A DNA stretch of 52,082 nucleotides, from the NCBI GenBank assembly GCA_902596375.1, contig CACJTU010000008.1, forward strand, positions 1 through 52,082, read 5' to 3'. This document shows positions 26,609-43,032 of the stretch, piece by piece. Every line of letters starts with the position of its first letter. Position 1 is the first letter of the stretch. Source of the DNA: an uncultured Pelagibacteraceae bacterium (lineage in GTDB: Bacteria > Pseudomonadota > Alphaproteobacteria > Pelagibacterales > Pelagibacteraceae). The notes below the pieces were generated by a model. That model was given only the letters and a program-made list of their open reading frames with translations. It searched no databases and was not told the origin of the DNA. The position numbers and the translations under genes are program-made.

Positions 26609-27931
26609 TTATTTCTTTGCCATTATAGCATTCAAAACAAATGCTAATAATCCAGCAGGTATAAGTCCGGTTGTTAACAGTAGTTTTAAACTTATTCCAA
26701 AATCAGGAATATTTTTCACAAAGTCTGGTAACAATGACATCCCAATTCCAAAAGATAGAGATAGAGCTAAGATTAATAAATTTCTTTGATCCATTTCTGC
26801 CCTTGAAATCAATTTAATACCAGCAGCTACAATCATACCAAACATAATAATTGCTGCTCCACCTATAACAGACTCTGGCATCGCTGCAATTATTCCACCT
26901 AATTTTGGAAATAATCCCATAAGAACCAAAACTATTCCAGCTATAGTTCCAACGTGTCTACTTACAACTCCTGTAAACGCAACTAGTCCAGCATTTTGAG
27001 AATAAGATGTATTTGGCATCGCATTAAATATTGCACCAAATGCAGTACCAACACCATCTGCCATAATTCCACCTGATATTTCTTTATCTGTTGCCTCTCG
27101 TTTAGCACCACCCATTGTCGTAGCACTAATGTCTCCAATTGTTTCAATTGTAGTAACAACTGACATAAACAACATTAGAATTATTGCACCAGGTACAAAA
27201 TCAATTCCATATTGAAGTGGCATTGGAAATGCAAACCATGATGCGGAAGAAATTTTTCCGTAGTTTACCATCCCTAGTGCTGCTGCAACTATGAAGCCGG
27301 CTACTATTCCAATTAAAATTGATCCTGCAGAAGCCATGCCTTTGCCTCTAAGATTAAAAAAGATAGCAACTATAAACACTGTGAAAGCAACCGTTAAGTG
27401 ATTTGCATTTGCAAAGATTTCTGGTTTATTGTTCATTAACCATCCACCTCCACCAGCATACATGAAGCCAACTTTAAGCAAACTAAATCCGATCATTAAC
27501 ACAACTATACCAGTGACTAATGGTGGGAATAGATGTCTTATTGGTTTTAAAACTTTTCCAATAAAAATTTGAAAAATTCCTCCAATGAATGCTGCTGTAA
27601 ATACTGCACCTAATCCTGCTGCTTTAAATGGTAGCATGATTGGTATAAACGCAAAACTTGTTCCTTGAACAATAGGAAGTCTTGCACCAATTTCTTTGTA
27701 TCCAACTGTTTGGATAATTGTTGCAACTCCCGCAACAAACAAAGCCATTTGAATCAAAAATATTTTTTGTTCAGGCGTTTGACCAAAAACTCCAGCCACA
27801 ATAATAGGAACCGTTATATTACCCGCAAACATTGCTAGTACGTGCTGAATTCCTAAAGGTATGGATTTATTTAATGGAAGTTTTTTATCCGGACTGTTTG
27901 TAGAGCCCACTTTTGATTTTCTTGAAGCCAT
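26609..27931 (-). CDS. NCS2-family purine (xanthine/urate-type) permease
   Basis: A 440-residue inner-membrane symporter with about 12-14 hydrophobic segments. The opening KSIPLGIQHVLAMFAGNITVPIIVAG is typical of nucleobase-cation symporter 2, and the family signature is visible as QNAGLVAFTGVVSR. NCS2 members take up xanthine, urate or uracil. The neighbouring xanthine dehydrogenase and urate genes point to xanthine or urate, but the sequence alone does not decide. It has a good Shine-Dalgarno (GGAGG) and is transcribed away from the lipoprotein gene with a 138-base leader region. Confidence 0.9.
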   Translation of the reverse strand: MASRKSKVGSTNSPDKKLPLNKSIPLGIQHVLAMFAGNITVPIIVAGVFGQTPEQKIFLIQMALFVAGVATIIQTVGYKEIGARLPIVQGTSFAFIPIMLPFKAAGLGAVFTAAFIGGIFQIFIGKVLKPIRHLFPPLVTGIVVLMIGFSLLKVGFMYAGGGGWLMNNKPEIFANANHLTVAFTVFIVAIFFNLRGKGMASAGSILIGIVAGFIVAAALGMVNYGKISSASWFAFPMPLQYGIDFVPGAIILMLFMSVVTTIETIGDISATTMGGAKREATDKEISGGIMADGVGTAFGAIFNAMPNTSYSQNAGLVAFTGVVSRHVGTIAGIVLVLMGLFPKLGGIIAAMPESVIGGAAIIMFGMIVAAGIKLISRAEMDQRNLLILALSLSFGIGMSLLPDFVKNIPDFGISLKLLLTTGLIPAGLLAFVLNAIMAKK

Positions 27932-28069
27932 ATAACCTCCGTCGTTAACTAAATAGACGTTACATTATTGGCTATGAATTAATATAAAAAAACTGATTAA
28001 TTTAGAACAACTCCAATTTAGATAGTAAAAAAAACCTATAATGAGCAGATTTATTTTAATTAATAAATT

Positions 28070-28375
28070 TTAAAAGCAACCGTTTGAAACAAAACCCACA
28101 ACTATATTTTCTGAATTTATTTCAAACCTCCGTTCACATGGAACAAGGTATTTTTTACTATTATAAACTAGCTCAAAATTGCCTTTAGCATTTTTAAAGT
28201 CTTCGTCTGGTTTTCCAAGCTCCATCTGAAGTTCACTAGCTGATTTCCCAAGAAATTTACTTAATTTTTCATTTTCCTTTTCAACAATAGCATCTGTTTT
28301 ATCTTTAACGGTTTGGCACCCTGAAAAAAAAATTAATATAATTACAAGAATTATTGCAGATTTTAATTTTGACAT
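28070..28375 (-). CDS. Small lipoprotein of unknown function
   Basis: The 101 residues begin with a lipoprotein signal (KSAIILVIILIFFSGC, Cys20). A short helix follows, then a region resembling SmpA/BamE-type folds (KFLGKSASELQMELGKPDEDFKN, LVYNSKKYLVPC), ending in a Cys-containing tail (SNGCF). The GKP(D) turn after a helix is the main hint of the BamE-like superfamily, and that assignment is weak. It lies between the permease and the deaminase-ABC operon and may share a transcript with the permease. Confidence 0.65.
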   Translation of the reverse strand: MSKLKSAIILVIILIFFSGCQTVKDKTDAIVEKENEKLSKFLGKSASELQMELGKPDEDFKNAKGNFELVYNSKKYLVPCERRFEINSENIVVGFVSNGCF

Positions 28376-28411
28376 AAGTTTAAATTAACATTTTTTGTTT
28401 CATAAATTATT

Positions 28412-28457
28412 AACTTTTAAGTTGTATAAATAATTTATTTCTTATTACTTTTAAGTT
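28412..28457. promoter_or_regulatory. Twin ACTTTTAAGT sites upstream of the ABC importer operon
   Basis: ACTTTTAAGTT occurs twice, at 28413-28423 and 28447-28457, 34 bases apart. Each copy is an inverted repeat (ACTT-TT-AAGT). They lie 45-90 bases upstream of the first gene of the operon, in a 126-base gap. Paired palindromes about three helix turns apart fit an operator, but AT-rich sequence makes chance copies possible. Confidence 0.35.
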
Positions 28458-28501
28458 TAATTATAGTAACAAATGTGTTCTTTATTTGATGGTTCAAGCA
28501 T

Positions 28502-29092
28502 ATGAATGAAAAAGCCCTAGAAAAGATACTAAATATATTTTTAAAAGAAGTTTTACCCTTAACTGAAATAGGTGTTGCCAAGGGTAGTAAAATATTTGGG
28601 GCAGCCATAATTAAAAAAGATGATTTATCGCTTGTAGTTGCAGAAACAAATAATGAAATAGAAAATCCGTTGTGGCATGGAGAAATGCATACTCTTAAAA
28701 AATTTTATGAGTTAGACGCAAATACAAGACCAAAAGAAAAAGACTGCATGTTCTTAAGTTCTCATGAGCCCTGCAGTATGTGTTTAAGTGCAATCACATT
28801 TTCTGGATTTGATAATTTTTATTATTTGTTTCCGTATATTGCCACAAATGATGAATTTAATATTCCACATGATTTAAATATACTCAAAGAAGTATTTAAA
28901 ATTAATGATGGAGAATATAATAAAGAAAATTCCTATTGGAAAAGTCAGAATATAAATTTACTTATTAAAAATTTACCTTCTCCAAAAAAAGAAAGTATTT
29001 TAAATCAATTACACGAAATTAAAAAAAAATATCAAAAATTATCAATTCAATATCAGGAAAATAAGGATGGAAATTCTATACCATTAAATTAA
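28502..29092 (+). CDS. CDA-superfamily deaminase of unknown substrate
   Basis: The 196-residue protein has the zinc motifs of the cytidine/deoxycytidylate deaminase superfamily: HGE (His59, Glu61) and PCSMC (Cys91, Cys94), inside WHGEMHTLKKFYEL and SSHEPCSMCLSAITFSGF. After the deaminase core there is about 90 residues of extra sequence ending in a charged tail (HEIKKKYQKLSIQYQ). It differs clearly from the guanine deaminase later in the same locus. It starts the operon for a nucleoside-type ABC importer, with 3 bases to the ATPase gene, so it probably acts on the imported compound: guanosine, cytidine, adenine and pterins are all open. Confidence 0.75.
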   Translation: MNEKALEKILNIFLKEVLPLTEIGVAKGSKIFGAAIIKKDDLSLVVAETNNEIENPLWHGEMHTLKKFYELDANTRPKEKDCMFLSSHEPCSMCLSAITFSGFDNFYYLFPYIATNDEFNIPHDLNILKEVFKINDGEYNKENSYWKSQNINLLIKNLPSPKKESILNQLHEIKKKYQKLSIQYQENKDGNSIPLN

Positions 29093-29095
29093 TTA

Positions 29096-30586
29096 ATGAA
29101 TACAAACCTTAAAATTTCAAATGTAACTAAAATATATCCTGGGTGTGTTGCAAACGATAATATTTCACTCGAATTTAATAGTGGTAAAATTTATGCTCTT
29201 CTTGGAGAAAATGGTGCTGGAAAATCTACACTAGTTAAAATTCTATCAGGCGTCATCATTCCTGACGAAGGTAAAATTTATTTAAATGAAAATAATCTAA
29301 AGCTTAATTCGCCATTAGATGCAAAAAAAAATGATATCGGAATGGTATTCCAGCATTTTAATCTTTTTGAAACTTTATCAGTATTTGAAAACTTAATAAT
29401 AGATTCAGATGAACAAAGGGAAAGTTTAAGAGAAAAAATTGATACAATTATGAAAAAATATAATTTTTCAATTGATCTTGATATTCCTGTTCTAAATCTA
29501 TCAGCAGGTCAAAAACAGAAAGTGGAAATAATAAGATGCCTAATAAGGAGTCCAAAAGTTTTAATTATGGATGAACCAACATCTGTATTAACTGAACAAG
29601 AAACGAGTGAATTATTCTTATCTTTGAAAAAATTTTCAGAAGAAGGAATTTTAATTATTTATATTACACATAAACTAAAGGAAGTTATGCAGCTTTGTGA
29701 TGAAGTTGCTGTAATGAGAAGAGGAAAGTTAGTTTCTGTAAGTGAAATAAAGAACGAAAATATTGAGTCACTTGCTAACAAAATGGTGGGTCAGAACCTA
29801 AAAATAATTAAGAAAAAAAAAGCAAAAACCTCATCAGATCAATTAATTAAAATAACGAATCTTAATTTTACAAGTGAAGATCCTTTTGAAACAAATTTAA
29901 TGGATATTAATTTTTCTGTTAATCGAGGGGAGTGTTTAGGAATTGCTGGTATATCAGGAAACGGACAAAGTGAATTATTTCAAGTATTAAGTGGTGAAAT
30001 TATTTCGGAAAAGAACTCTATAGAATTTAAGAATAATTACATAGGAGATTTAAATCCTCAAGAAAGAAGAGAATATTTGATGGCCTTTTCTCCAGAGGAT
30101 AGGCTTGAGCAGGCTGCAATTCCACAAATGAAAATTTTTGAAAATGTAGCTCTAAACAATTTTAAATCATCAAATTTTTTTGATAATGGATTAATAAACG
30201 AAAACAAAATTAAAGAGCATTCCAAAAAAATAATTTCAGATTTTAATGTTAATACGGACAACATTGAATTAAAAAGCCAATTTTTGTCCGGAGGTAATCT
30301 TCAAAAATTAATTATTGGAAGAGAATTAATAACTTCTCCAGATTTATTAATTTGTTTTAATCCAACTTGGGGTCTAGATGTTGGAGCAATAAATTATATC
30401 CACGAAACATTGATTAAAATTAATGAACAAAATAAATCAATTATATTAATATCTACAGATACTGATGAGTTATTAAAATTAAGTGATAAAATTTCAGTAA
30501 TTCATAAAGGAAAATTGTCAAAAATTATGAATGCTGAAGAAGTTACCTCTGAAAAACTTGGGATACTAATGGGAGGAGCAAATTGA
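29096..30586 (+). CDS. ABC importer ATPase, nucleoside/BMP-type (two ATPase domains)
   Basis: The 496 residues contain two ABC cassettes. The first has Walker A GENGAGKSTL, signature LSAGQKQKVEI and Walker B VLIMDEPTSVL. The second is degenerate, as usual in this family: GISGNGQSELF, signature LSGGNLQKLII and CFNPTWGLDVG. This is the layout of the ATPase in simple sugar and nucleoside importers that pair with BMP-type binding proteins (YufO/NupA-like). It energises the two permeases that follow; the next gene starts inside its stop codon. Confidence 0.9.
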   Translation: MNTNLKISNVTKIYPGCVANDNISLEFNSGKIYALLGENGAGKSTLVKILSGVIIPDEGKIYLNENNLKLNSPLDAKKNDIGMVFQHFNLFETLSVFENLIIDSDEQRESLREKIDTIMKKYNFSIDLDIPVLNLSAGQKQKVEIIRCLIRSPKVLIMDEPTSVLTEQETSELFLSLKKFSEEGILIIYITHKLKEVMQLCDEVAVMRRGKLVSVSEIKNENIESLANKMVGQNLKIIKKKKAKTSSDQLIKITNLNFTSEDPFETNLMDINFSVNRGECLGIAGISGNGQSELFQVLSGEIISEKNSIEFKNNYIGDLNPQERREYLMAFSPEDRLEQAAIPQMKIFENVALNNFKSSNFFDNGLINENKIKEHSKKIISDFNVNTDNIELKSQFLSGGNLQKLIIGRELITSPDLLICFNPTWGLDVGAINYIHETLIKINEQNKSIILISTDTDELLKLSDKISVIHKGKLSKIMNAEEVTSEKLGILMGGAN

Positions 30587-31647
30587 TTAAAATCGTAAAA
30601 AGAGATCAACCATCAAGAGCTATTTTTTTCTTTACACCTGTGTTAGCTATTTTTCTAACATTAGTAGCGGGAGGTTTGATTTTTTTTATTTTAGGTTTTA
30701 AACCATTTGAAGCTCTTAAATTTTTTTTCATAGTTCCAATTGCAGATAAATATGGTTTCAGTGAATTACTATTAAAAGCTACACCTCTTTGTTTAATAGC
30801 AATCGGTTTATCTTTTTGTTTTAAAAGTAATAACTGGAATATTGGAGCCGAAGGACAATTAACTTTCGGGGCGATAGTTTCTGGAGGAGTTGCATTATTG
30901 TTTTATGAGCAAGAAGGATTTTACATTCTTCCAACAGTAATTTTAGCTGGTGCAATCGGTGGTATGCTGTATGCATCGATACCCGCAATCTTAAAAACTT
31001 ACTTTAATACAAATGAAATATTAGTAAGTCTTATGTTGGTATATGTCTCAAAATTAATTTTGGACTATCTTGTTGTTGGTCCTTGGAGTAATCCAGAGGG
31101 GTTTAATTTTCCTGAAACTAGACAGTTTAGTGACTCTGCTAAACTTCCGTTGTTATTTGAAGGACTGAGAATTCACGCGGGAATATTTTTAGCTTTAGCT
31201 GCGGTGGTTATCAGTTGGTTTGTTTTTTATAAAACTTATTTAGGGTTCCAAATGAAAGTTTCGGGTTTTAGTTTAAAGACAGCAAAATATGCCGGATACA
31301 AAGGTAAAAAAATGATCATCCTTGTTTTTCTAATAAGTGGTGCTTGCGCAGGTTTAGCTGGAGTTGGAGAAATAACCGGACCTATTGGACAGCTTCATAG
31401 AGAAATTTCTCCAGATTATGGTTTTACTGCTATAATTGTAGCGTTCTTGGGTCGTTTACATCCTGTTGGTATCATCTTTGCATCTCTAGTTGTTGCAATA
31501 ACTTATCTTGGTGCTGAGACAGCTCAAATATTTATGCAAATACCTAAATATACTGGTCAGGTTTTTCAAGGAATGATTTTATTTTTTCTTCTTGCATCGG
31601 ATTATTTACTTTTTTTCAAAATTAAATTTATGGGTTTAAAAAAATGA
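30583..31647 (+). CDS. ABC importer permease 1, nucleoside/BMP-type
   Basis: A 354-residue membrane protein with about eight to ten hydrophobic segments. Landmarks are NWNIGAEGQLTFGAIVSGG and YFNTNEILVSLMLVYVSKLILDYL, typical of the COG4603 (YufP-like) permeases. The start is TTG, overlapping the ATPase stop (TTGA) and preceded by GGGAGGAG. A segment GACAGLAGVGEITGPIGQLH matches the conserved cytoplasmic loop. Confidence 0.9.
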   Translation: MIKIVKRDQPSRAIFFFTPVLAIFLTLVAGGLIFFILGFKPFEALKFFFIVPIADKYGFSELLLKATPLCLIAIGLSFCFKSNNWNIGAEGQLTFGAIVSGGVALLFYEQEGFYILPTVILAGAIGGMLYASIPAILKTYFNTNEILVSLMLVYVSKLILDYLVVGPWSNPEGFNFPETRQFSDSAKLPLLFEGLRIHAGIFLALAAVVISWFVFYKTYLGFQMKVSGFSLKTAKYAGYKGKKMIILVFLISGACAGLAGVGEITGPIGQLHREISPDYGFTAIIVAFLGRLHPVGIIFASLVVAITYLGAETAQIFMQIPKYTGQVFQGMILFFLLASDYLLFFKIKFMGLKK

Positions 31648-32576
31648 TCATCGATATAAATTTTATCGGACTAATAATTGCATCAATCATGGCATCTGCT
31701 GTTCCTTTAATCCTAGCGTCTTGTGGTGAACTGATTACAGAAAGGTCTGGAGTTTTAAACCTCGGTGTTGAAGGAATGATGATCATCGGTGCTATTTCAG
31801 GTTTCGCATTAATGACTGTTACTGGAAGTTTAATTATTGCAATTATTGGAGCAATGTTAGCTGGAGTTTTAATTTCAACTATTTTTGCATTCCTGACTCA
31901 AACATTGATCACAAATCATGTTGCTACTGGTTTGGCACTTACCATATTTGGAATTGGTATTTCTGCGATGATAGGAAAAAATTTTGTAGGTATTCCTGGA
32001 AAAGAGTTTCCTGTTTTATTTGAGGGTTTAAAAGATACAATACCACTTTTAGGTCCAATATTATTTGGACATTCGATTGTTTTTTATTTTGCATTTGCCC
32101 TTCCCTTCATAACTAGCTATTTTTTAAAAAAAACGAAAATTGGATTAATTGTAAGAGCTGTAGGAGACTCACCTGAGTCTGCATCTAATCAAGGAATAAA
32201 TGTTAGGCTAGTTCGTTATGCTTGTATACTTTATGGAGGCGCAATGAGTGGGCTTGCTGGTGCATATTTATCCATGATTTATACTCCTCAGTGGATTGAA
32301 AATATGACAGGTGGAAGAGGTTGGATCGCATTGGCTCTGGTGGTTTTCTCAACGTGGAACCCAATTAAAATTTTGATTGGTGCTATGATTTTTGGTGGAT
32401 TAACAATTATTCAGTTTCATATGCAAGCAATTGGAGTAAGAATTCCTGTGCAATTTTTAACAGCTCTACCTTACATCGTTACAATAATAGTTTTAGTTGT
32501 AATTTCTCGTGATAGTAGAAAAATTAGGCTAAGTACTCCTAGTTCCCTGGGGAAATCTTTTCATAAAGACAATTAA
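31644..32576 (+). CDS. ABC importer permease 2, nucleoside/BMP-type
   Basis: The 310 residues match the partner permease family (COG1079-like): LGVEGMMIIGAISGFALM, GLALTIFGIGISAMIGKNFVG and TGGRGWIALALVVFSTWNP. About eight or nine hydrophobic segments are visible. It overlaps permease 1 by 4 bases. The 77-base gap before the binding-protein gene could house a separate promoter, which is common where binding proteins are made in excess. Confidence 0.9.
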   Translation: MIIDINFIGLIIASIMASAVPLILASCGELITERSGVLNLGVEGMMIIGAISGFALMTVTGSLIIAIIGAMLAGVLISTIFAFLTQTLITNHVATGLALTIFGIGISAMIGKNFVGIPGKEFPVLFEGLKDTIPLLGPILFGHSIVFYFAFALPFITSYFLKKTKIGLIVRAVGDSPESASNQGINVRLVRYACILYGGAMSGLAGAYLSMIYTPQWIENMTGGRGWIALALVVFSTWNPIKILIGAMIFGGLTIIQFHMQAIGVRIPVQFLTALPYIVTIIVLVVISRDSRKIRLSTPSSLGKSFHKDN

Positions 32577-32653
32577 TTATAAAATAATTATTTTTTTTAA
32601 GATAATTTAATCTAAATTTAAATAATTAAAAAATCAAAAGGGGAAATAAATTT

Positions 32654-33724
32654 ATGCATAAATTTTTAATTCGATCTTTCGTCTCTTCTTTAGTTTTATT
32701 ATTTACATTAACTGTAGCTGCAGTTGCCAAAGATGTTAAAGCAGCATTTGTTTATATTGGTCCAACTGGTGACCATGGTTGGACATATCAGCATGATGTA
32801 GGTAGAAAAGCTGTTGAAGCTGCCGGATTTAAAACAACTTACGTAGAAGGTGTTCCAGAAAGTGCCGATGCTGAGAGGGTTCTTAGACAATTAGCTAACT
32901 CTGGTCATGATGTTATCTTTACAACTAGTTTTGGATATATGAATCCAACTAACAAAGTTGCAAAAGAATTTCCAAATGTAAAATTTGAACATGCTACTGG
33001 ATACAAAAGAGAACATCCAAATGTTTCGACATACGCAGCTAGATTCTATGAAGGTAGAACTATCTTAGGAACAATTGCTGGAACTATGACAAAATCAAAT
33101 ATTATTGGTTATGTTGCATCTTTTCCAATTCCTGAAGTTATCAGAGGTATCAATTCATTTACTTTAGCAGCTCAAAAAGTTAACCCAAATATTAAAACAA
33201 AAATTGTTTGGGCTTTCACTTGGTATGATCCGGGTAAAGAAGCAGAGGCAGCAAAAGCTTTAATCGATCAAGGTGCTGATGTAATTGCTCAACATACAGA
33301 TAGTACTGCTATTGTTCAAATGGCTGAAAAAGCTGGAGTATATGCTTTTGGACAAGCAAGTGATATGGACAAGTTTGCTCCTAAAGCTGTATTAACTTCA
33401 GTTGAAAACAATTGGGGACCATATTACGTAGACAGAGTTAAAGCAGTTGCAAATGGTACATGGAGTCAAAAAGATACTTGGCATGGTATTGGAGATGGTA
33501 TGGTTGTGATATCAGATTTAGATTCACAAATGCCAGCTGACCTGAGATCAAAAGTTAAAAAACTTCAGGCAGATTTAGCATCTGGAAAAGTTCATTCTTT
33601 CACAGGACCAATTTATGACCAGAAAGGTAACTTGATGGTTGCTGAAGGAAAAACTGCAGATGATGGAATGCTTGCAGGAATGATGACTTACGTTAAAGGT
33701 GTTGAAGGAGATATACCTAAGTAA
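32654..33724 (+). CDS. BMP-family periplasmic substrate-binding protein
   Basis: The 356 residues start with a signal peptide (RSFVSSLVLLFTLTVAAVA, cleaved near KDVKA) and continue with the Bmp/PnrA-type fold: KAAFVYIGPTGDHGWTYQHDVGRKA, DVIFTTSFGYMNPTNKVAKEFPNVKFEHATGY and VIAQHTDSTAIVQMAEKAGVYAFGQ. Characterised members bind purine nucleosides (PnrA) or autoinducers; relatives next to purine genes may bind hypoxanthine, xanthine or urate. There is no lipobox, so it is probably soluble in the periplasm. Codon use is more even than in neighbours, as in strongly expressed genes. Shine-Dalgarno is GGGGA. Confidence 0.92.
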   Translation: MHKFLIRSFVSSLVLLFTLTVAAVAKDVKAAFVYIGPTGDHGWTYQHDVGRKAVEAAGFKTTYVEGVPESADAERVLRQLANSGHDVIFTTSFGYMNPTNKVAKEFPNVKFEHATGYKREHPNVSTYAARFYEGRTILGTIAGTMTKSNIIGYVASFPIPEVIRGINSFTLAAQKVNPNIKTKIVWAFTWYDPGKEAEAAKALIDQGADVIAQHTDSTAIVQMAEKAGVYAFGQASDMDKFAPKAVLTSVENNWGPYYVDRVKAVANGTWSQKDTWHGIGDGMVVISDLDSQMPADLRSKVKKLQADLASGKVHSFTGPIYDQKGNLMVAEGKTADDGMLAGMMTYVKGVEGDIPK

Positions 33725-33747
33725 TCAGTTTCCAATTTAAAAAATTT

Positions 33748-33778
33748 AAAAGGCCGGTTTTTTAACTGGCCTTTTTTA
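33748..33778. terminator. Terminator after the ABC importer operon
   Basis: A 12-bp stem AAAAGGCCGGTT / AACTGGCCTTTT (one G-T pair) with loop TTTT runs into T residues. It lies 24 bases after the binding-protein stop, and its right end touches the stop codon of the convergent phosphoribosyltransferase gene, so it may serve both. Confidence 0.85.
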
Positions 33779-34300
33779 TATCTGATGTTTTTTTTTGATT
33801 TGTTCAATCCTTAATTCTTCATAAATTTCGAAGGGTTGTACTATCCAAGGATTATCAGGAAGTCTCTTTGCACAGAAGTCTGGCTCAAATGTTGATTTCT
33901 TTTTTTTGAATAATGTTGCAGTTTTAATGTCTTCTATTTTATCCTTAATGGGTTCGTATTTTTTTAACCAATCTATACTTTTGTTAAAAGTAATTCCTGT
34001 GTCAGATAAATCATCACATAAAAGTATTTTTCCACCCATATTAGGTGCTATCGAACTCATTTCTCTTGAAAATACAATATCACCTTGCTCATCCTCTACT
34101 CCCTTACCACTGTAAGATTCAACGGCAAGATACGCACATTTTAATTTAAAGATTCTACTTAAAACATCTATCATCGGCGCTGCTCCACGCATGATGCCAA
34201 TTAGTATGGTTGGTTTATATCCGCTTTCATCAATTTGGATTGCAAGCTTCTCAACAGTTTTATTGTACTCGTCCCAGCTGACAATCATTTTTTCAGGCAT
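33776..34300 (-). CDS. Purine phosphoribosyltransferase
   Basis: A 174-residue type I phosphoribosyltransferase. The PRPP-binding motif is KILLCDDLSDTGIT (residues 91-104), preceded by ILIGIMRGAAPMIDVLSRIF and followed by WIVQPFE, which matches the xanthine/hypoxanthine group (COG2236-like). It would salvage xanthine, guanine or hypoxanthine to the nucleotide. It is the last gene of the operon that starts with HIU hydrolase, 16 bases after puuD, so salvage and breakdown of imported bases appear coupled. Confidence 0.85.
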   Translation of the reverse strand: MPEKMIVSWDEYNKTVEKLAIQIDESGYKPTILIGIMRGAAPMIDVLSRIFKLKCAYLAVESYSGKGVEDEQGDIVFSREMSSIAPNMGGKILLCDDLSDTGITFNKSIDWLKKYEPIKDKIEDIKTATLFKKKKSTFEPDFCAKRLPDNPWIVQPFEIYEELRIEQIKKKHQI

Positions 34301-34316
34301 AATTTTTTATATCTAT

Positions 34317-35225: not shown

Positions 35226-35695
35226 TAATATTTTATTTTATCTACTTTTTTATCCCAAATTTCAAATGCTTTTAAAGCTTCATCTCTGAGCATTTGAACC
35301 ATTTTAATTTTCCTATCATCAATTTTTTTTGGGATTTCAGAATATATAAACGAGTCATCGAAATCTATATTTTTTGCATCTTCTCTAGTATTTGCATAAT
35401 ATATTTTATCTAATCTTGACCAATAAATTGCTGAGAGACACATCGGACAAGGTTCACAAGATGTATAAATCTCGCATCCAGAAAGATCAAAAGTATTTAA
35501 ATTTTTACAGGCTTCTCTAATTGCTACTATTTCTCCATGAGCAGTTGGATCATTTGAAGAAGTAACTTTATTTGAACCCTCTGCAATAATCTTATCATCC
35601 TTAACTATAACACTTCCAAAGGGACCGCCAATTGTATTTGCACTATTTATTGAAAGTTCAATAGCTTTCGCCATAAATTTTTTTTTATCTTCCAT
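35225..35695 (-). CDS. guaD: Guanine deaminase
   Basis: The enzyme converts guanine to xanthine and ammonia. The 156 residues equal the length of the Bacillus subtilis enzyme and follow it block by block: GGPFGSVIVKDDKIIAEG, NDPTAHGEIVAIREACK (His53, Glu55), TSCEPCPMCLSAIYWSR (Cys83, Cys86) and DFDDSFIYSEI. It is of the CDA fold, unlike the amidohydrolase guanine deaminases of many proteobacteria. It lies 1 base after xdhB, feeding its product straight to xanthine dehydrogenase. Confidence 0.92.
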   Translation of the reverse strand: MEDKKKFMAKAIELSINSANTIGGPFGSVIVKDDKIIAEGSNKVTSSNDPTAHGEIVAIREACKNLNTFDLSGCEIYTSCEPCPMCLSAIYWSRLDKIYYANTREDAKNIDFDDSFIYSEIPKKIDDRKIKMVQMLRDEALKAFEIWDKKVDKIKY

Positions 35696-35696
35696 T

Positions 35697-38000
35697 TTAA
35701 TTTTTTATTTTATTTTTAATTTTGTTAATGCTCATTAAAATTCTTTCAGGGGTTGCTGGTGCATTTAGTTCTGGTGCAAACTGATAATTTCCAATTGAAG
35801 CAACTGCATCTTTTATTGCATAAAAAACACTCATGGCTAGCATCAAAGGGGGTTCACCAGTTGTTTTTGCTTTATTAACAACTTTTTCTTTATTTAATCC
35901 TTCTTTAAAAATTTCTACATTAAATTTTTTTGGAATATCACTTACTGCAGGTATTTTGTAAGTCGATGGAGAAAAAGTTGTAATCTGGCCATCTGATTTC
36001 CACTTCAATTCCTCAATTGTAAGCCAACCTTGTCCTTGTACAAAACCGCCCTCTATCTGGCCCAATTCTAGTGCTGGATTTATTGGTTTACCAGCATCAT
36101 GTAAGATATCCACTCTTTCCAGAATATTTTCACCGGTCAATGTATCTATAGTTACTTCCGAAACAGCTGCTCCGTAACAAAAGTAATAAAAAGGTCTTCC
36201 TCTAAATTTTTTTTTATCAAAATTAATTTTTGGTGTTGAGTAGAAGCCTGATGAAGAAAGAGAAATTCTATTTAAATATGCCTCTTGAATTATGCTTTTA
36301 AATTCAAATTGTCTGTTTCCAAATATTATATATTGATCTTTATAAATTGCCTCTTGATTATAGATCTTATATTTTTTCTTAATAAATTTTTCTAAATTTA
36401 ATTTAATTTTTGCTACTGCATTTAGAGCTGCTGCTCCATTAAGATCAGTTGTTGAAGAAGCGGCACTAGCTGAAGTATTTGGAACCTTGGCCGTATTTGT
36501 TGATGAGATATGAACTAAATTATATGGCAATCCTAATGAATTTGCCACTAACTGAGCAATCTTTGTATGAGTCCCCTGACCCATTTCAATTCCTCCATGA
36601 TTCAAATGAACACTTCCATCTGTGTAAATATGAACTAGGGCTCCAGCTTGATTTAAATGAATTGTAGTAAATGAAATACCAAATTTTAAAGGTGTAATGG
36701 CTATCCCCTTCTTTTTAAATTGATTTTTTTCATTAAATTTTCTTATATATGAATATCTTTTCTTATAATTAGATTTATTTTCTAATTTTTTAAATATTTC
36801 ATTAATAACATTATCTTCAACAGTCATTCCATAATGAGTTACATTATTTTTATCTTTTTGATAAAAATTTTTCTTTCTGACTTCTATAGGATCTTTTTTC
36901 AAATACCTTGCGATATTATCTATAATATTTTCTATAGCCATCATCCCTTGATTTCCACCAAAGCCTCTAAATGCAGTTGAGGTTGGAATATTTGTTTTAC
37001 ATAAATTATTTGTTACCTCGATATCTGAAATATAATATGCATTGTCCACATGAAGCAAAGCTCTCTCGTTTATTGCTGCTGATAAATCAGGTGACATTCC
37101 ACAATTAGAAGATAAATTTAATTTTAACCCTTCAATGATACCATGATCATTAAAACCAACTTCATATTCAGATAAAAATTCATGTCTCTTACCAGTTAAA
37201 ATTATATCATCATCTCTATCCAATCTTAATTTAACTGGTTGACCTGATTTTTTTGCCAACAAGGCACAAATGCATGCTGTCATGAAATTTGTTTCCTTCC
37301 CCCCAAAACCACCTCCAATTCTTCTGACTTCAACATTTATTGAATTACTTTTTTGATTAAACATTTTTGCAATTAATTGTTGAGTTTCCGATGGATGTTG
37401 TGTTGAACTATAAACTAAAAAATTATCGTCTTCTTTAGGAACAACAAAAGCTGCTTGGCCCTCTAAATAAAAGTGCTCTTGGCTTCCAGTTGTAAAATTT
37501 CCTTTTAAATTATTTTTTGAATTTTTTATTTTTTTAGAAGGGTTACCTTTTTTAATTTTTCTAGGTTTAAATAAAAATTGCCTTTTATTTAGAGCTTCTT
37601 TAATTGTAATAACAGGTTTTAAATCTTTATAGGTAATTTTGGCTTTTAATACTGCCTTTCTAGCAAGTTCTGTAGTTGTAGCAGCTACAGCAAATAATGG
37701 CTGACCAAAAAACTCAACTTTTTTTTCTGGAAAAATCGGATCACCATCAAAAACTGGACCCACATCATTTCTACCAGGGATATCTCTTTGAGTAACTACC
37801 GATATCACTCCTTCACTTTTTTTTACTTCAGTGAGGTCCATATTTTTGATTATTGCATGGGCTTTTTTGCTTAAACCAATAGCACCATAAATGGTATTTT
37901 TTGGTTCATTAATATCATCAGTATACTCTGCATATCCACTCACATGCTTATAAGCACTATCATGTGGTCTTATTTCCTCAATGTAGTTCTCTTTACTCAT
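35697..38000 (-). CDS. xdhB: Xanthine dehydrogenase, molybdenum-binding subunit
   Basis: This 767-residue large subunit oxidises hypoxanthine and xanthine to urate. Visible are SAYKHVSGYAEYTDDI at the start, STQHPSETQ, the molybdopterin loop RRIGGGFGGKETNF, the active-site arginine region TAFRGFGGNQGM, EMGQGTHTKIAQLVANSLGLP, and the C-terminal TTGEPPLMLAMSVFYAIKDA containing the catalytic Glu-bearing stretch. Length is normal for the bacterial two-subunit form. It abuts xdhA with no spacer. No xdhC insertion chaperone is visible in the window. Confidence 0.95.
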   Translation of the reverse strand: MSKENYIEEIRPHDSAYKHVSGYAEYTDDINEPKNTIYGAIGLSKKAHAIIKNMDLTEVKKSEGVISVVTQRDIPGRNDVGPVFDGDPIFPEKKVEFFGQPLFAVAATTTELARKAVLKAKITYKDLKPVITIKEALNKRQFLFKPRKIKKGNPSKKIKNSKNNLKGNFTTGSQEHFYLEGQAAFVVPKEDDNFLVYSSTQHPSETQQLIAKMFNQKSNSINVEVRRIGGGFGGKETNFMTACICALLAKKSGQPVKLRLDRDDDIILTGKRHEFLSEYEVGFNDHGIIEGLKLNLSSNCGMSPDLSAAINERALLHVDNAYYISDIEVTNNLCKTNIPTSTAFRGFGGNQGMMAIENIIDNIARYLKKDPIEVRKKNFYQKDKNNVTHYGMTVEDNVINEIFKKLENKSNYKKRYSYIRKFNEKNQFKKKGIAITPLKFGISFTTIHLNQAGALVHIYTDGSVHLNHGGIEMGQGTHTKIAQLVANSLGLPYNLVHISSTNTAKVPNTSASAASSTTDLNGAAALNAVAKIKLNLEKFIKKKYKIYNQEAIYKDQYIIFGNRQFEFKSIIQEAYLNRISLSSSGFYSTPKINFDKKKFRGRPFYYFCYGAAVSEVTIDTLTGENILERVDILHDAGKPINPALELGQIEGGFVQGQGWLTIEELKWKSDGQITTFSPSTYKIPAVSDIPKKFNVEIFKEGLNKEKVVNKAKTTGEPPLMLAMSVFYAIKDAVASIGNYQFAPELNAPATPERILMSINKIKNKIKN

Positions 38001-39437
38001 TTAATTTACTCTTGATAACTTATTAGAATTTATTTCTACAAAACATTTCATCAATAAATTTTTTGCTATCTCTAGTCTGTATTCTTTACTAGCCCTCATG
38101 TCTCCAATAGGACTTAAATCTTTTTCTAAATATTTTTTCGCTTGATCAAAAGTATTGATGGTAAGAGGTTTATTTTTAAGAATTTTTTCACATGCTTTAG
38201 CTCTTTTTGGTACAGCAGCCATGCCTCCATATGCAATATAAACCTCTTTAATTTTATTATTATTAATCTCAAAATTAAAAGATCCACAAACAGATGAAAT
38301 ATCATCATCAAATCTTTTTGATATCTTAAATGCCTTAAAAATATTTTTCTTAAATAATGGTATTTTTATTGAATGTATAAATTCATTGTTTTTTAATTTA
38401 GTTTTTCTGTAATCAAGAAAAAAATTATTTAAAGGTATCACTTTTCTTTTGTTAAAACTTTCAATTAAAACCTCTGCGTTTAAAGATAATAGAATTGGCA
38501 GTGAGTCACCAATTGGAGATGCTGTTGCAATATTGCCACCTATAGTTCCAACATTTCGAATTTGAACAGACCCATATCTTTTTAGAACCAAATAAAAATC
38601 TGGATAATATTTTTTAATTTCTTTTTCAAATTTTATTAAAGGTGTAGCAGAACCAACTTCTAAATAATTTTTACTTACTTTAATAAAATCTAATTCATTA
38701 ATTTCTTTTAAATCAATTATAAACGGAATTTCTTTTCTTTCTTTTGTGACTTTTAAAGATAAGTCAGTTCCACCAGCAAGAAAACTAAAATTAGAATGTT
38801 TTTTAATTATACCTTTTAAATCTTTAATATTTTTTGGTGAAAAATAAATTTTATCATCTTTTTTAATATAAATATTTTTTGATTTAATTTTTTTTAATTG
38901 TTGAATAACTTTATTTTTATTTTTAGAAAATTGATCATTTTTATTTAGTTTATTTAAACTTTTTGCAGCATCAATTATGGGTCTGTAACCAGTACAACGA
39001 CATAAATTACCAGATATAGAATCTGATATTAATTCGTTATTAAGATTTTTGTTATTTTTAAACATTGAAAATAACGACATAACAAATCCTGGTGTGCAGA
39101 AACCACATTGCGAGCCATGAAATTTCACCATTGCATCTTGCACAGGATGAAGTTGTCCATTTTTAGAAACTAAATCTTCGACAATTATAAGTTGTTTACC
39201 ATTCAGTGTTGGTACAAAAGAAATACAAGAATTAATTGCTTTATATTCAATTTTATTATCGACTAATTCACCTAAAACAATTGTACATGCGCCACAACCA
39301 CCCTCTGAACATCCTTCTTTAGTTCCAGTCTTTTTTAATTCAGTTCTAATATAATTAAGTAACGTTTGATTTGGATCGGGATTTTTAATTACTATAAGCT
39401 TGTCATTTAATAGAAATTTAACAGAACTCGATATCAC
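38001..39437 (-). CDS. xdhA: Xanthine dehydrogenase, iron-sulfur and FAD subunit
   Basis: The 478 residues hold two [2Fe-2S] clusters and FAD. The plant-type cluster is CSEGGCGAC (Cys43, 48, 51) plus Cys71; the second uses Cys111 and Cys114 (CGFC) and Cys146, Cys148 (CRC). The FAD domain has LAGGTDLSL and SVQIRNVGTIGGNIATASPIGDSLP. The start is GTG, placed directly after the HIU hydrolase stop (TAAGTG). It passes electrons from the molybdenum subunit to NAD. Confidence 0.95.
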   Translation of the reverse strand: MISSSVKFLLNDKLIVIKNPDPNQTLLNYIRTELKKTGTKEGCSEGGCGACTIVLGELVDNKIEYKAINSCISFVPTLNGKQLIIVEDLVSKNGQLHPVQDAMVKFHGSQCGFCTPGFVMSLFSMFKNNKNLNNELISDSISGNLCRCTGYRPIIDAAKSLNKLNKNDQFSKNKNKVIQQLKKIKSKNIYIKKDDKIYFSPKNIKDLKGIIKKHSNFSFLAGGTDLSLKVTKERKEIPFIIDLKEINELDFIKVSKNYLEVGSATPLIKFEKEIKKYYPDFYLVLKRYGSVQIRNVGTIGGNIATASPIGDSLPILLSLNAEVLIESFNKRKVIPLNNFFLDYRKTKLKNNEFIHSIKIPLFKKNIFKAFKISKRFDDDISSVCGSFNFEINNNKIKEVYIAYGGMAAVPKRAKACEKILKNKPLTINTFDQAKKYLEKDLSPIGDMRASKEYRLEIAKNLLMKCFVEINSNKLSRVN

Positions 39438-39788
39438 TTAACTACCTCTATAAGTAGAGTAACTCCAAGGTGAAACAAGTAAAGGAACATGATAATGCTG
39501 TGAGGGATCTGAAATACCAAATCTTATCACAACATCATCCAAAAATGGTACATCGCTAGCTGAAGATATATTTTTAAAATAGTCGCCAATATGAAAAATT
39601 AATTCATATTTACCCTTAATGAAAACATCTCCCTCTGCTAATGGTGAATTAGCTCTACCATCATCATTGAGTTTTGTTGACGTTAATTTTTTTCGTTCTG
39701 AATTATTAATATAAAACAACTCAACTAGGATATCTTTGCCAGGTTTACCAGAATACACATCTAAAACATGAGTTGTGAGCTTTGTCAT
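39438..39788 (-). CDS. uraH: 5-hydroxyisourate hydrolase (transthyretin-like)
   Basis: HIUase hydrolyses 5-hydroxyisourate, the product of urate oxidation, to OHCU. The 116 residues have the N-terminal TTHVLDVYSGKPG (His7), Arg45 in DDGRANSP, the histidine pair HYHVPLLVSPWSYSTYRGS, and the diagnostic YRGS C-terminus. There is no signal peptide, so it is cytoplasmic. It is the first gene of the left operon; its start lies 47 bases from the divergent uraD start. Confidence 0.95.
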   Translation of the reverse strand: MTKLTTHVLDVYSGKPGKDILVELFYINNSERKKLTSTKLNDDGRANSPLAEGDVFIKGKYELIFHIGDYFKNISSASDVPFLDDVVIRFGISDPSQHYHVPLLVSPWSYSTYRGS

Positions 39789-39835
39789 AAAATTATAGTA
39801 TCATTTAATTTCAAACTTAAATTTTTAAAAGTTAT

Positions 39836-40333
39836 ATGAGAACAATAGATAACATTAACGATCTTAACAAGTCTGATTTTTTGTCTATATTTGGTAATGT
39901 TTTTGAAAAAACTGAGTCAGTTGCTATGGAAGCTTTTGAGTTAAAACCATTTAAAAACTTTGAAGATATTGTGTCTAAAATGCTTGATATTTATGAAAAT
40001 TACGAAAAGAATAAAATTTTAGACATTTTAAATGCTCATCCTGAGCTTGCTGTAGCAAAAAAAATGACCTCTGAATCTATATCAGAACAAGCCTCTGCAA
40101 AATTGAACCAATGTTCAAATGATGAATATGAAGAATTTAAAAAATTAAATTCAGAATATAAAAAAAAGTTTAATTTTCCTTTTATAATTGCTGTAAAAGG
40201 TAAAGATAAAAATGAAATTTTGAATAATTTTAGACAAAGAATACAAAGTGATGTAGAAAATGAATTCCTTGAAGCAAAAAAACAAGTAAAAAAAATCGCA
40301 ACCTTTCGTTTGAATGAAATAAATAAAAAATGA
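39836..40333 (+). CDS. uraD: OHCU decarboxylase
   Basis: The enzyme decarboxylates 2-oxo-4-hydroxy-4-carboxy-5-ureidoimidazoline to S-allantoin. The 165 residues are all helical in appearance, with the catalytic AHPELA (His68, Glu70) and the family run ESISEQASAKLNQCSNDEYEEFKKLNSEYKKKFNFPFIIAVKGK. It opens the right operon uraD-alc-allA-puuE, all joined by 4-base overlaps. Confidence 0.93.
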   Translation: MRTIDNINDLNKSDFLSIFGNVFEKTESVAMEAFELKPFKNFEDIVSKMLDIYENYEKNKILDILNAHPELAVAKKMTSESISEQASAKLNQCSNDEYEEFKKLNSEYKKKFNFPFIIAVKGKDKNEILNNFRQRIQSDVENEFLEAKKQVKKIATFRLNEINKK

Positions 40334-41316
40334 AAAAATTTATAAATGCAAAAATGATTAACTTAGCGGATCCAAGAATTGGATCTAAAGTTATATTTAA
40401 GACTGACGATTTTTTTGCAGCTGCTCATAGAATATTAAACATCGAAACTCCAGTTTTTAAAGATGGATTGTTTGACAAACATGGTAAATGGATGGATGGA
40501 TGGGAAACAAGGAGAAGAAGATCAAAAGGTTTTGATTATTTAATTTTAAAACTTGGTAAACCCGGAAAGATATTTGATATAGACATTGACACAACACACT
40601 TCAATGGAAATCAGCCAACACATGCTTCGTTAGAGGGTTGCTTAAGTAAAACAAAACCTAATAAGAAAACAAAATGGATTTCTTTACTGAGCAAAAAAAA
40701 ACTTGGGCCAAGCCGAAACCATAACTTCAAATCAAACAACAAATCTGTTTTTAATTATATAAGACTAAACATTTTTCCAGATGGTGGAGTTGCAAGACTA
40801 AGGCTTTATGGAAAAATTGAAATGGAGAAAAACTTTTTAAATAACAAAACTATCAACCTTACATCTGTTTTAAATGGCGCTTCAATTATTGGTTGTAATA
40901 ATGAACATTTCGGCAGGGCTGAAAATATCATAGCACCTGGTAAAGGGAAAAATATGGGAGATGGTTGGGAAACAAGAAGAAGTAGAGGAAAAAACTTTGA
41001 TTGGCTTATAATAAAATTTGGAAAACCAGGATTAATAAAAAAACTAGAGATAGATACCCATCATTTTAAAGGAAACTATCCCGATAGTTGTTCAATTCAA
41101 ACTGCAAGCATTTCAAAAGATCTGTCCAATAAATCAATTGTCAATAATTCAAAAAATTGGAAGTTTATTTTAAATAAGTCAAAACTGTCAGCTCACAAGA
41201 AACATATTTTTAAAAAATTCTTAATTAAGAGAAGTAAGGAAAATTATCTTAAAATAAATATCTATCCAGACGGTGGAATTTCAAGAATAAGGGCATTCGG
41301 AAATTTTGTTAGATGA
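40330..41316 (+). CDS. alc: Allantoicase
   Basis: Allantoicase splits allantoate into ureidoglycolate and urea. The 328 residues contain the expected internal duplication: DGWETRRRRSKGFDYLILKLGKPG with IDTTHFNGNQP in the first half (about residues 55-100), and DGWETRRSRGKNFDWLIIKFGKPG with IDTHHFKGNYP in the second (about 215-260). Each half ends with a PDGG..R.R.(F/Y)G strand. Both repeats look intact. It overlaps uraD and allA by 4 bases. Confidence 0.95.
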   Translation: MKKFINAKMINLADPRIGSKVIFKTDDFFAAAHRILNIETPVFKDGLFDKHGKWMDGWETRRRRSKGFDYLILKLGKPGKIFDIDIDTTHFNGNQPTHASLEGCLSKTKPNKKTKWISLLSKKKLGPSRNHNFKSNNKSVFNYIRLNIFPDGGVARLRLYGKIEMEKNFLNNKTINLTSVLNGASIIGCNNEHFGRAENIIAPGKGKNMGDGWETRRSRGKNFDWLIIKFGKPGLIKKLEIDTHHFKGNYPDSCSIQTASISKDLSNKSIVNNSKNWKFILNKSKLSAHKKHIFKKFLIKRSKENYLKINIYPDGGISRIRAFGNFVR

Positions 41317-41804
41317 AAATAATAAAAGCAAAAAAAATTACTAAAAAAAATTTTTCTAAATTTGGTCAATTAATAGATACGTCAAAAAAAAATCCTATTA
41401 ATATTAATGATGGTTATGCAAAAAGATTTGATAATTTGATTAACGTAGATGCATCTAAAAACAAAGGGAAAGCAATTGTTAGTATTTTTAAAGCAAAAAA
41501 AAGAAGGTTTCCTATGAAAATTGATATGATGGAAAAACATCCTTTAGGAAGCCAAGCCTTTATACCAATGGAAGATACAAAATTTTTAGTATTTGTAGCA
41601 CCAAAAGGAGATAAACCAGATGTAAATAAAATCCAATCCTTTTTAGTCCCAAAACAAACTGGGGTTAATTACAATGCTGGTATTTGGCACTTTCCATTGA
41701 TCTCTATGAAAAATATGAATTTTCTAATTGTTGATAGAAAAGGAAAAGGAAACAATCTTGTTATTTATAAATTTAAAAAAGATAAAATTATTTTGAAAAA
41801 ATGA
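41313..41804 (+). CDS. allA: Ureidoglycolate lyase
   Basis: The enzyme releases glyoxylate and urea from ureidoglycolate. The 163-residue cupin-like protein begins KIIKAKKITKKNFSKFGQLID, with MMEKHPLGSQAFIPMEDTKFLVFVAP and NYNAGIWHFPLISMKNMNFLIVDR matching the AllA fold landmarks. It sits between allantoicase and allantoinase, which supports the assignment. Confidence 0.92.
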   Translation: MKIIKAKKITKKNFSKFGQLIDTSKKNPININDGYAKRFDNLINVDASKNKGKAIVSIFKAKKRRFPMKIDMMEKHPLGSQAFIPMEDTKFLVFVAPKGDKPDVNKIQSFLVPKQTGVNYNAGIWHFPLISMKNMNFLIVDRKGKGNNLVIYKFKKDKIILKK

Positions 41805-42700
41805 AAAAAAAATACCCAAGAGATTTGGTGGGATATGGTTCCAAAAAAATTAAGGTAAAGTGGCCTGGTAATGCTAAGTTAGCTTTGCAATTTGTGCTTA
41901 ATTACGAGGAGGGAGCAGAAAATTGTACTCTTCATGGTGATAAAACTTCAGAAGTATTTTTATCAGAAATTATAGGAGCAAAACCAATTAAAGGTCGACA
42001 CTTAAATATGGAATCAATTTATGAATATGGATCAAGAAGAGGGTTTTGGAGAATTCATGATCTATTTAATAAAAAGAAAATTCCACTTACTATTTTTGGA
42101 GTTGGTATGGCATTGGAAAGAAATAAAGAAGTTTGTTTGGCTATAAAAAAAGCAAATTATGAAGTTGCTAGTCATGGGTGGAGATGGATTGACTATCAAA
42201 ATGTATCAAAGAAAAAAGAAAAGAATGATATGGAGCTTGCAGTCAAATCTATAAAAAAGATTTTTGGTAATCAACCTGCTGGTTGGTACACAGGTAGGTG
42301 TAGCGAAAATACTTTAGATTTAGTAATTGATAATGGTAATTTTTTATACTGTAGTGACACATACAGTGATGATCTTCCTTACTGGATAAAAAAAGGTAAT
42401 AAAAAACAACTAATGGTTCCTTACACACTTGATAACAATGATATGAGGTTTGCAACCAATCAAGGATTTAATTCAGGTGAACAATTTTATAATTATTTAA
42501 AAGATAGTTTCGATGCTCTTTATGAGGAAGGAAAAACTTCACCAAAGATGATGTCGGTTGGCTTGCATTGTAGATTAATTGGAAGACCTGGTAGAATACA
42601 GTCTCTTAAAAAATTTTTAAATTACATCAAAAAATTTAAGGATATTTGGATCTGCAAAAGAGTAGATATAGCTAAACATTGGATAAAAAATTATAGTTAA
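41801..42700 (+). CDS. puuE: PuuE-type allantoinase (polysaccharide-deacetylase fold)
   Basis: The 299 residues belong to the carbohydrate-esterase 4 fold and match PuuE, the metal-independent allantoinase that opens allantoin to allantoate. It starts YPRDLVGYGSKKIKVKWPGNAKLALQFVLNYEEGAE and has YEYGSRRGFWRIHDLF, EVASHGWRWIDYQNV, QPAGWYTGRCSENTLDL and CSDTYSDDLPYWI. It replaces the unrelated amidohydrolase allantoinase (AllB). It is the last gene of the right operon. Confidence 0.93.
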   Translation: MKKKYPRDLVGYGSKKIKVKWPGNAKLALQFVLNYEEGAENCTLHGDKTSEVFLSEIIGAKPIKGRHLNMESIYEYGSRRGFWRIHDLFNKKKIPLTIFGVGMALERNKEVCLAIKKANYEVASHGWRWIDYQNVSKKKEKNDMELAVKSIKKIFGNQPAGWYTGRCSENTLDLVIDNGNFLYCSDTYSDDLPYWIKKGNKKQLMVPYTLDNNDMRFATNQGFNSGEQFYNYLKDSFDALYEEGKTSPKMMSVGLHCRLIGRPGRIQSLKKFLNYIKKFKDIWICKRVDIAKHWIKNYS

Positions 42701-42708
42701 AATTTTTA

Positions 42709-43032
42709 TTATTGTTCCGCAGCTATAGAAGTATAGTGAGCAACCGCTTCTATTTCCTCATGAGTAAGAATGCCCTCCATTGCAGGCATTACTCCTATAC
42801 CGTTTCTAACTGCCATTATAATTCTTTGAATATCAGGTCTAATTTCATTTAAATTTGGACCCACCATTGCGTTTGATTCAGCATCTGAGAGCATATGGCA
42901 TGCTGCACAATTTCCTGCTCCCAGAAAAACTTCTTTTCCCTTATTAAACAATTCATCAGCATTAACGTGAGTTAATGATGAAAATATCAAAAATAATGAT
43001 GCACTAAAGAAATTTAAAAATAATTTTTTCAC
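42709..43032 (-). CDS. Secreted class I cytochrome c
   Basis: The 107 residues begin with a Sec signal peptide (cleavage about after THVNA, before DELF). The haem motif is CAACH (Cys42, Cys45, His46), and a methionine in VMPAMEG (Met82 or Met85) is the likely sixth ligand. The order is that of short mono-haem c-type cytochromes. It ends 8 bases from puuE on the opposite strand. PuuD in this locus lacks its own cytochrome domain, so this protein may be its periplasmic electron acceptor. That is an inference from position. Confidence 0.9.
   Translation of the reverse strand: MKKLFLNFFSASLFLIFSSLTHVNADELFNKGKEVFLGAGNCAACHMLSDAESNAMVGPNLNEIRPDIQRIIMAVRNGIGVMPAMEGILTHEEIEAVAHYTSIAAEQ

Follow-up and report, generated by a model that had tools for sequence, protein, structure and literature searches.

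A cytochrome-less PuuD homologue in the purine-degradation island of Pelagibacteraceae

How might a bacterium oxidise urate with a PuuD that has no cytochrome c? PuuD is described, in the available part of Doniselli 2015 (PMC4562309), as a membrane domain fused to a cytochrome c domain whose presence is there called invariant. The question is raised by a contig of an uncultured SAR11 bacterium (Pelagibacteraceae; assembly GCA_902596375.1, contig CACJTU010000008.1, our C8), analysed over its whole length of 52,082 nucleotides, hereafter the window, and belonging to a draft genome of 1,157,850 bases that is 87.3% complete. Positions 26609-43032 hold an island of purine uptake and breakdown genes, among them a puuD (34317..35225, minus strand) that encodes the membrane domain only. 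The island as such is already published; the new part is the PuuD without its cytochrome domain, and it bears on how PuuD oxidises urate. We consider it likely that this is a purine island whose derived PuuD passes electrons on in trans, a small cytochrome c encoded at the island's end being the likeliest acceptor.

PuuD without its cytochrome c domain

At 302 amino acids, the PuuD of the window spans the full-length PF06181/DUF989 membrane domain, stops after the last helix and contains no CxxCH motif. Its gene stands in a purine-degradation context, between a phosphoribosyltransferase gene and guaD-xdhB-xdhA-hiuH. With the membrane domain and the gene context of a PuuD and no C-terminal cytochrome c domain, the protein is a cytochrome-less PuuD homologue, not a standard PuuD.

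Strong PuuD matches (E < 1e-60) were found in 57 of the 397 Pelagibacteraceae genomes searched, fragments in G126, G025 and G006 being excluded. Frames of 248-308 amino acids account for 56 of these, the 248-residue one (G130) lying at a contig edge; in the last genome, G338 (L039:3790-5139), puuD and the phosphoribosyltransferase gene share one frame of 449-451 amino acids, which runs from PuuD residues 1-282 into phosphoribosyltransferase residues 19-173 and either arose by a deletion that fused the two genes or is an error of assembly. CxxCH is absent from all 40 PuuD frames in the fetched loci. A separate, partial PF06181 match (profile about 169-238, about 1e-9), in frames of some 200 amino acids, occurs in most of the SAR11 genomes searched and was left out of these counts.

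The best 80 places from a scan of a second collection, which shares part of its content with the first and yielded more matches than these, comprise 28 Pelagibacteraceae loci and 52 others. All 28 Pelagibacteraceae PuuDs are short (280-303 amino acids) and without CxxCH, that of locus L138 being 100% identical to the protein of the window, which confirms the assignment to SAR11; all 52 others measure 391-508 amino acids and carry a C-terminal CxxCH. Among the 52 we count L168, which is titled Pelagibacteraceae and whose PuuD gene is a 98% match to G556 of another family; if the title is right, this is one fused exception within the Pelagibacteraceae. Judged by frame length only, CxxCH not being scored, 89 of 91 frames from outside our own group in a sample of the class and 117 of 118 in an overlapping sample of the phylum reach at least 395 amino acids; the former figure includes G627, a weak match (842-residue frame, E 4e-35). 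The short exceptions in these samples comprise G523 and two fragments at contig edges (G686, G999). The 308-residue frame of G523 was considered as a second origin of cytochrome-less PuuD and is treated instead as an orphan relative, with Asn at the position of H243; no CxxCH was seen in the surrounding 18.5 kb, and inspection by eye found no purine breakdown genes there.

In a tree of the membrane domain (quick search, midpoint root), split and fused PuuDs part at one branch with a Shimodaira-Hasegawa-like approximate likelihood ratio test (SH-aLRT) support of 100, so that the tree needs a single change between the two forms; the stem branch to SAR11 PuuD carries 0.81 changes per column. Fused PuuDs from marine Alphaproteobacteria outside SAR11 branch beside the SAR11 sequences. 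A loss on the SAR11 side is therefore the most economical direction of change, and we infer that Pelagibacteraceae PuuD is a derived form that has lost its C-terminal cytochrome c domain. Other marine Alphaproteobacteria (L132, L168, L170, L171) carry the purine genes with a fused PuuD, and the order in L132, hiuH-xdhA-xdhB-xdhC-guaD-puuD with a DNA glycosylase-like gene alongside, largely resembles that of SAR11 (xdhC being assigned by eye and by place).

The membrane domain itself is evidently still constrained, since H19, H57, H227 and H243 are invariant in 57 aligned PuuDs. Genera g3 and g6 have a yet shorter protein (about 280 amino acids) without even the last helix. A confident AlphaFold2 model of PuuD was obtained, with a predicted local distance difference test (pLDDT) score of 90.8 and a predicted template modelling (pTM) score of 0.87. 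It gave 0 Foldseek matches at E <= 0.001 and, with VIA-align, a best Z of 6.9 and none of at least 8 among 157 chains, and we make no statement on its fold; a sequence search of the PDB with PuuD likewise returned no convincing relative.

The small cytochrome c of the island

If the cytochrome domain was lost, electrons from urate must leave PuuD in trans, and the likeliest acceptor in this strain would be the stand-alone small cytochrome c encoded at 42709-43032, which the initial annotation had missed, as it had the absence of the domain from PuuD. Among the same best 80 loci, within the fetched flanks, a stand-alone cytochrome accompanies PuuD in 17 of the 28 from SAR11 and in none of the 52 others; the small CxxCH frames that do occur among the 52, antisense in puuD (L199) or about 8 kb away (L215), look like chance. 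In the genus of the window, 31 of 37 puuD-positive genomes have the cytochrome at the island, including G368 and G396, where the contig is broken and the gene adjoins puuE; two others are without any copy, the contig ending first. The gene is also kept in four of eight same-genus islands that have no alc, allA and puuE; where present, it therefore follows the oxidative half of the pathway.

Where might this cytochrome have come from? We considered that it could be the domain split off from PuuD. BLAST against the cytochrome domains of eight PuuDs gave only two matches of six residues, with E above 2, and with no similarity to the lost domain the cytochrome looks like a recruit. Its probable source is a small-cytochrome family whose SAR11 members also occur next to genes for sulfur oxidation: those adjoining adenosine 5'-phosphosulfate (APS) reductase or a sulfite-oxidase-type gene are 36-55% identical to the island copy (one representative of each neighbour was profile-scanned, the rest labelled by eye). 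In a tree of these proteins, SAR11 cytochromes beside the sulfite-oxidase-type gene form a separate branch (support 90/88), and the island cytochromes do not make one clade. In two puuD-negative SAR11 genomes, rpoB and an apparent rpoC have a small cytochrome c gene between them (L109:4157-4471, L110:4031-4339).

The nearest characterised relative appears to be SorU, the cytochrome c of sulfite dehydrogenase: the nearest named model is NF052248 and the nearest solved chain is 4pw9, deposited as 'Putative cytochrome C', which we take to be a SorU. Unlike SorU, the island protein scores 83.5 bits, below the NF052248 cut-off of 100, and has no adjoining sorA, its neighbours being puuE and a DUF1330 gene.

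Where the electrons of PuuD may go

We regard as possible, though a little short of probable, a fuller scenario in which an ancestor shared by the purine-eating Pelagibacteraceae cut off the cytochrome c domain, leaving PuuD as a bare membrane dehydrogenase. This would feed small cytochromes of the periplasm that can stand in for one another and whose family sulfur oxidation uses too (the sulfite dehydrogenase and APS reductase loci), one copy having been captured into the island.

Several observations weigh against the pairing of PuuD with the island cytochrome. Eleven of the 28 SAR11 loci are without it; four of these (L138, L142, L144, L149) end before its expected place, and in seven (L154, L155, L159, L161-L164) the place is covered by the contig and the gene is not there, even in L154, an otherwise whole island with alc, allA and puuE. 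Four genomes of the same genus (G149, G194, G214, G362) have no island copy and only one beside a sulfite-oxidase-type gene elsewhere. No CxxCH frame was seen in 14 loci of genera g3 and g6, whose homologues, where the context was inspected, adjoin APS reductase or a sulfite-oxidase-type gene, and the nearest homologue in g14 (55%) adjoins APS reductase, not puuD. In the window about 7.5 kb, including genes on the opposite strand, separate the cytochrome gene from puuD, and co-location in one island of one lineage may reflect a single event. No fold match, for its part, hints at how PuuD binds cofactors.

Many of these loci would also suit a rival in which quinone or oxygen takes the electrons of PuuD directly, the cytochrome of the island serving some other process: the seven contig-covered loci, the four same-genus islands and the g3 and g6 islands all have a cytochrome-less PuuD with no local cytochrome, and in g3 and g6 the last helix has gone as well. 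We nonetheless regard this direct route as unlikely, for a homologue of the small cytochrome is found somewhere in the genome in 52 of 57 puuD-positive against 4 of 23 puuD-negative genomes, a contrast that is partly circular, the homologue being the island copy itself in most same-genus cases, and purine use is tied to cytochrome c maturation in PuuD-bearing Sinorhizobium in the available part of PMC4562309. Transfer in trans to a small cytochrome thus stays the preferred route; some SAR11 islands are without the gene, and the island cytochrome is therefore probably one of several possible acceptors.

That SAR11 PuuD has ceased to be a urate oxidase and become a purine or urate carrier in the membrane would fit the loss of an electron-transfer domain and the long stem branch, and is nevertheless very improbable: the core residues of PuuD remain invariant, HIU (5-hydroxyisourate) hydrolase and OHCU (2-oxo-4-hydroxy-4-carboxy-5-ureidoimidazoline) decarboxylase are retained in 33 and 34 of 40 loci, no other urate oxidase family was matched among the island proteins, and the island already encodes importers. 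An assembly or frame artefact, which the mostly draft state of the genomes might invite, can be dismissed on the near-uniform short length in all 57 strong matches (G338 being explained by its run-on into the phosphoribosyltransferase) and in the 28 loci of the overlapping collection.

The purine island and its predicted pathway

All the purine genes that the initial annotation had named are present as open frames within 26609-43032. The features of the island and its edge are as follows.

26609..27931, minus: NCS2 nucleobase permease, xanthine-permease-like (PF00860 E 1.4e-91; TIGR00801 over cut-off)
28070..28375, minus: small putative lipoprotein, by eye, counted among the core genes of the site (no Pfam match)
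28502..29092, plus: divergent deaminase of the cytidine deaminase (CDA) fold, 'purine deaminase 2' type (PF00383 E 8.2e-10; nearest solved Bacillus GuaD, E 2.4e-5)
29096..30586, plus: ATP-binding cassette (ABC) importer ATPase with two ABC domains (PF00005, two stretches, E 1.5e-52)
30583..31647, plus: ABC importer permease 1 (PF02653 E 1.7e-44)
31644..32576, plus: ABC importer permease 2 (PF02653 E 1.2e-34)
32654..33724, plus: BMP-family substrate-binding protein (PF02608 E 9.6e-54; nearest solved 3s99 E 9.5e-120, atrazine-binding 6pi5 E 4.3e-109)
33776..34300, minus: purine phosphoribosyltransferase (PF00156 E 2.3e-27; nearest solved 4z1o, purine phosphoribosyltransferase GpT-2, E 1.1e-10)
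34317..35225, minus: PuuD-type urate oxidase, membrane domain only (PF06181 profile 2-293/295, E 4.9e-85; no CxxCH)
35225..35695, minus: guanine deaminase, GuaD type (1wkq match over residues 5-155 of 156, E 1.5e-48)
35697..38000, minus: xanthine dehydrogenase molybdopterin subunit, XdhB (TIGR02965 1109.3 bits, cut-off 849.5)
38001..39437, minus: xanthine dehydrogenase FeS/FAD subunit, XdhA (TIGR02963 582.9 bits, cut-off 467)
39438..39788, minus: 5-hydroxyisourate hydrolase, HiuH (PF00576 E 1.6e-34)
39836..40333, plus: OHCU decarboxylase, UraD (PF09349 E 1.1e-41)
40330..41316, plus: allantoicase, Alc (PF03561, two repeats, E 2.8e-97)
41313..41804, plus: ureidoglycolate lyase, AllA (PF04115 E 7.1e-50)
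41801..42700, plus: PuuE allantoinase (TIGR03212 484.6 bits, cut-off 424.6; solved PuuE 3cl6 E 6e-112)
42709..43032, minus: stand-alone small cytochrome c of 107 amino acids, putative PuuD acceptor (PF13442 E 7.3e-11; CxxCH at residue 42, hydrophobic N-terminus)
43076..43363, plus: DUF1330 protein, core gene at the island edge (PF07045 E 6.3e-26)

The permease, phosphoribosyltransferase, puuD, guaD, xdhB, xdhA and hiuH genes thus lie on the minus strand, and those of the ABC importer, uraD, alc, allA and puuE on the plus strand. When ten island proteins were scanned with NCBIfam, the cut-offs were passed by PuuE, by both xanthine dehydrogenase subunits with equivalog models (TIGR02965, TIGR02963), and by the NCS2 permease with the superfamily model; against the pbuX model TIGR03173 the permease reached 409.5 bits, slightly below the cut-off of 414.15. 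GuaD scored 74.8 bits against the TadA model, below its cut-off of 150, and shows near whole-length homology to Bacillus GuaD instead. The divergent deaminase at 28502-29092 is additional to GuaD. No RNA families or tRNAs were found in the window, and a promoter and terminator scan of it gave fewer sites than shuffled sequences did.

From these assignments the bacterium should be able to import purines and degrade them to glyoxylate and urea. The NCS2 symporter and the BMP-type ABC importer, whose binding protein belongs with relatives of the 3s99 and 6pi5 kind that we take to bind adenine or guanine, would bring in purine bases, which could then either be salvaged through the phosphoribosyltransferase or broken down. 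In breakdown, GuaD would convert guanine to xanthine and XdhAB xanthine to urate; PuuD would oxidise urate to 5-hydroxyisourate, which HiuH would turn into OHCU and UraD into S-allantoin; PuuE would then yield allantoate, Alc ureidoglycolate and urea, and AllA glyoxylate and urea, malate synthase being the predicted entry of glyoxylate into central metabolism. The claim that every step from guanine to glyoxylate is present thus holds on paper, island genes covering all eight, with glyoxylate and two urea as end products.

The view of the island as a block dedicated to purine uptake and breakdown, set in a small genome, is borne out as well, and helper genes for it were found on other contigs of the same genome: contig C6 encodes MoaA and, at its edge, an XdhC-family protein, and C5 encodes malate synthase. 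A missing XdhC, which we considered, is ruled out, an XdhC-family protein being over cut-off in 40 of 42 puuD-positive genomes tested, against 2 of 7 puuD-negative ones. A search for co-occurrence in SAR11, which had been proposed as a check, recovered the core order phosphoribosyltransferase-puuD-guaD-xdhB-xdhA-hiuH-uraD in 40 loci, variants included and to the extent that the contigs cover it; because it repeats in loci from other genomes, the block is not a product of chance.

Chromosomal site and variation

As far as the stretches reach, the island is flanked in the 40 loci by an S9 peptidase/Hsp20 side and a HhH-GPD glycosylase/EamA/MsrA-type/rhodanese side. Seven loci have no HIU hydrolase; in six of these the stretch ends first, and the seventh, L059, looks internally deleted. 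For comparison we used 17 puuD-negative genomes (of 18 located; L219-L235), in all of which the phosphoribosyltransferase gene stands at the same site without the island, joined by DUF1330 in 14, the small lipoprotein-like gene in 14 and a distant NCS2-type match in 12. The site therefore appears to be a purine salvage locus to which the breakdown genes are a variable addition. The proposed choice between salvage and breakdown gains plausibility from this constancy of the phosphoribosyltransferase; as to which base it would take, its NCBIfam matches all fall below cut-off. Genome G101 (L230) has the purine ABC importer at this site without catabolic genes, which suggests salvage-only import, and in genera g3 and g6 the DUF1330 gene directly adjoins puuD.

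Fate of the nitrogen

The suggestion that purines serve this cell as a nitrogen source stands in part. The ammonia released by guanine deaminase would make one of guanine's five nitrogens directly usable; a search for urease alpha (PF00449) gave no match in the genome of the window, which is 87% complete, and the other four would therefore end as urea. Across 80 genomes, urease is over cut-off in 19 of 57 puuD-positive and 0 of 23 puuD-negative ones, and in 19 of the 37 puuD-positive genomes of the same genus. Among the same-genus genomes with fetched islands, urease is present in 10 of the 15 that have the ABC importer and in 0 of the 10 that do not, in agreement with the link between nitrogen harvest and the ABC transporter drawn in the available part of Braakman et al. 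(PMC11698098). The genome of the window has the importer, and no urease was found in it. This sharpens the nitrogen question, in that cells without urease would have to export urea.

Comparison with known systems

A gene cluster for aerobic purine degradation, located in a genomic island of SAR11, is reported in the available part of Haro-Moreno 2020 (PMC7318151), and the Fig. 3 legend of Braakman 2025 (PMC11698098) lists NCS2, an ABC transporter, two deaminases, a purine phosphoribosyltransferase (PPRT), PuuD, xanthine dehydrogenase (XDH), hiuH, uraD, alc, ugl and PuuE. The accessible text of the latter places the operon in about 18 to 22% of SAR11 genomes, with some groups handling part of the pathway and urease often lacking; that of a 2025 paper in ISME J (PMC12636525) reports xdhAB, nupNOPQ and uraA in offshore genera. 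The island of the window matches the published gene list (xdhAB, puuD, hiuH, uraD, puuE, alc, ugl and importers). Unlike those accounts, as far as their available text goes, it is described here with a cytochrome-less PuuD and a cytochrome c gene of its own; the word 'cytochrome' occurs 0 times in what is available of PMC11698098 and PMC7318151. A search of the open-access literature, judged by listings and with subscription journals mostly outside its scope, found no treatment of a cytochrome-less PuuD.

With PuuD/COG3748, as set out in the available part of Doniselli 2015 (PMC4562309), the SAR11 protein shares the multi-helix DUF989/PF06181 membrane domain and the purine gene context; it differs in having no C-terminal CxxCH cytochrome c domain and, in g3 and g6, no last helix either. 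A domain held to be invariant and essential is thus absent from the purine-degrading SAR11 genomes searched, which would offer, in place of the fused enzyme, a natural two-part system whose membrane domain and acceptor are separable for testing.

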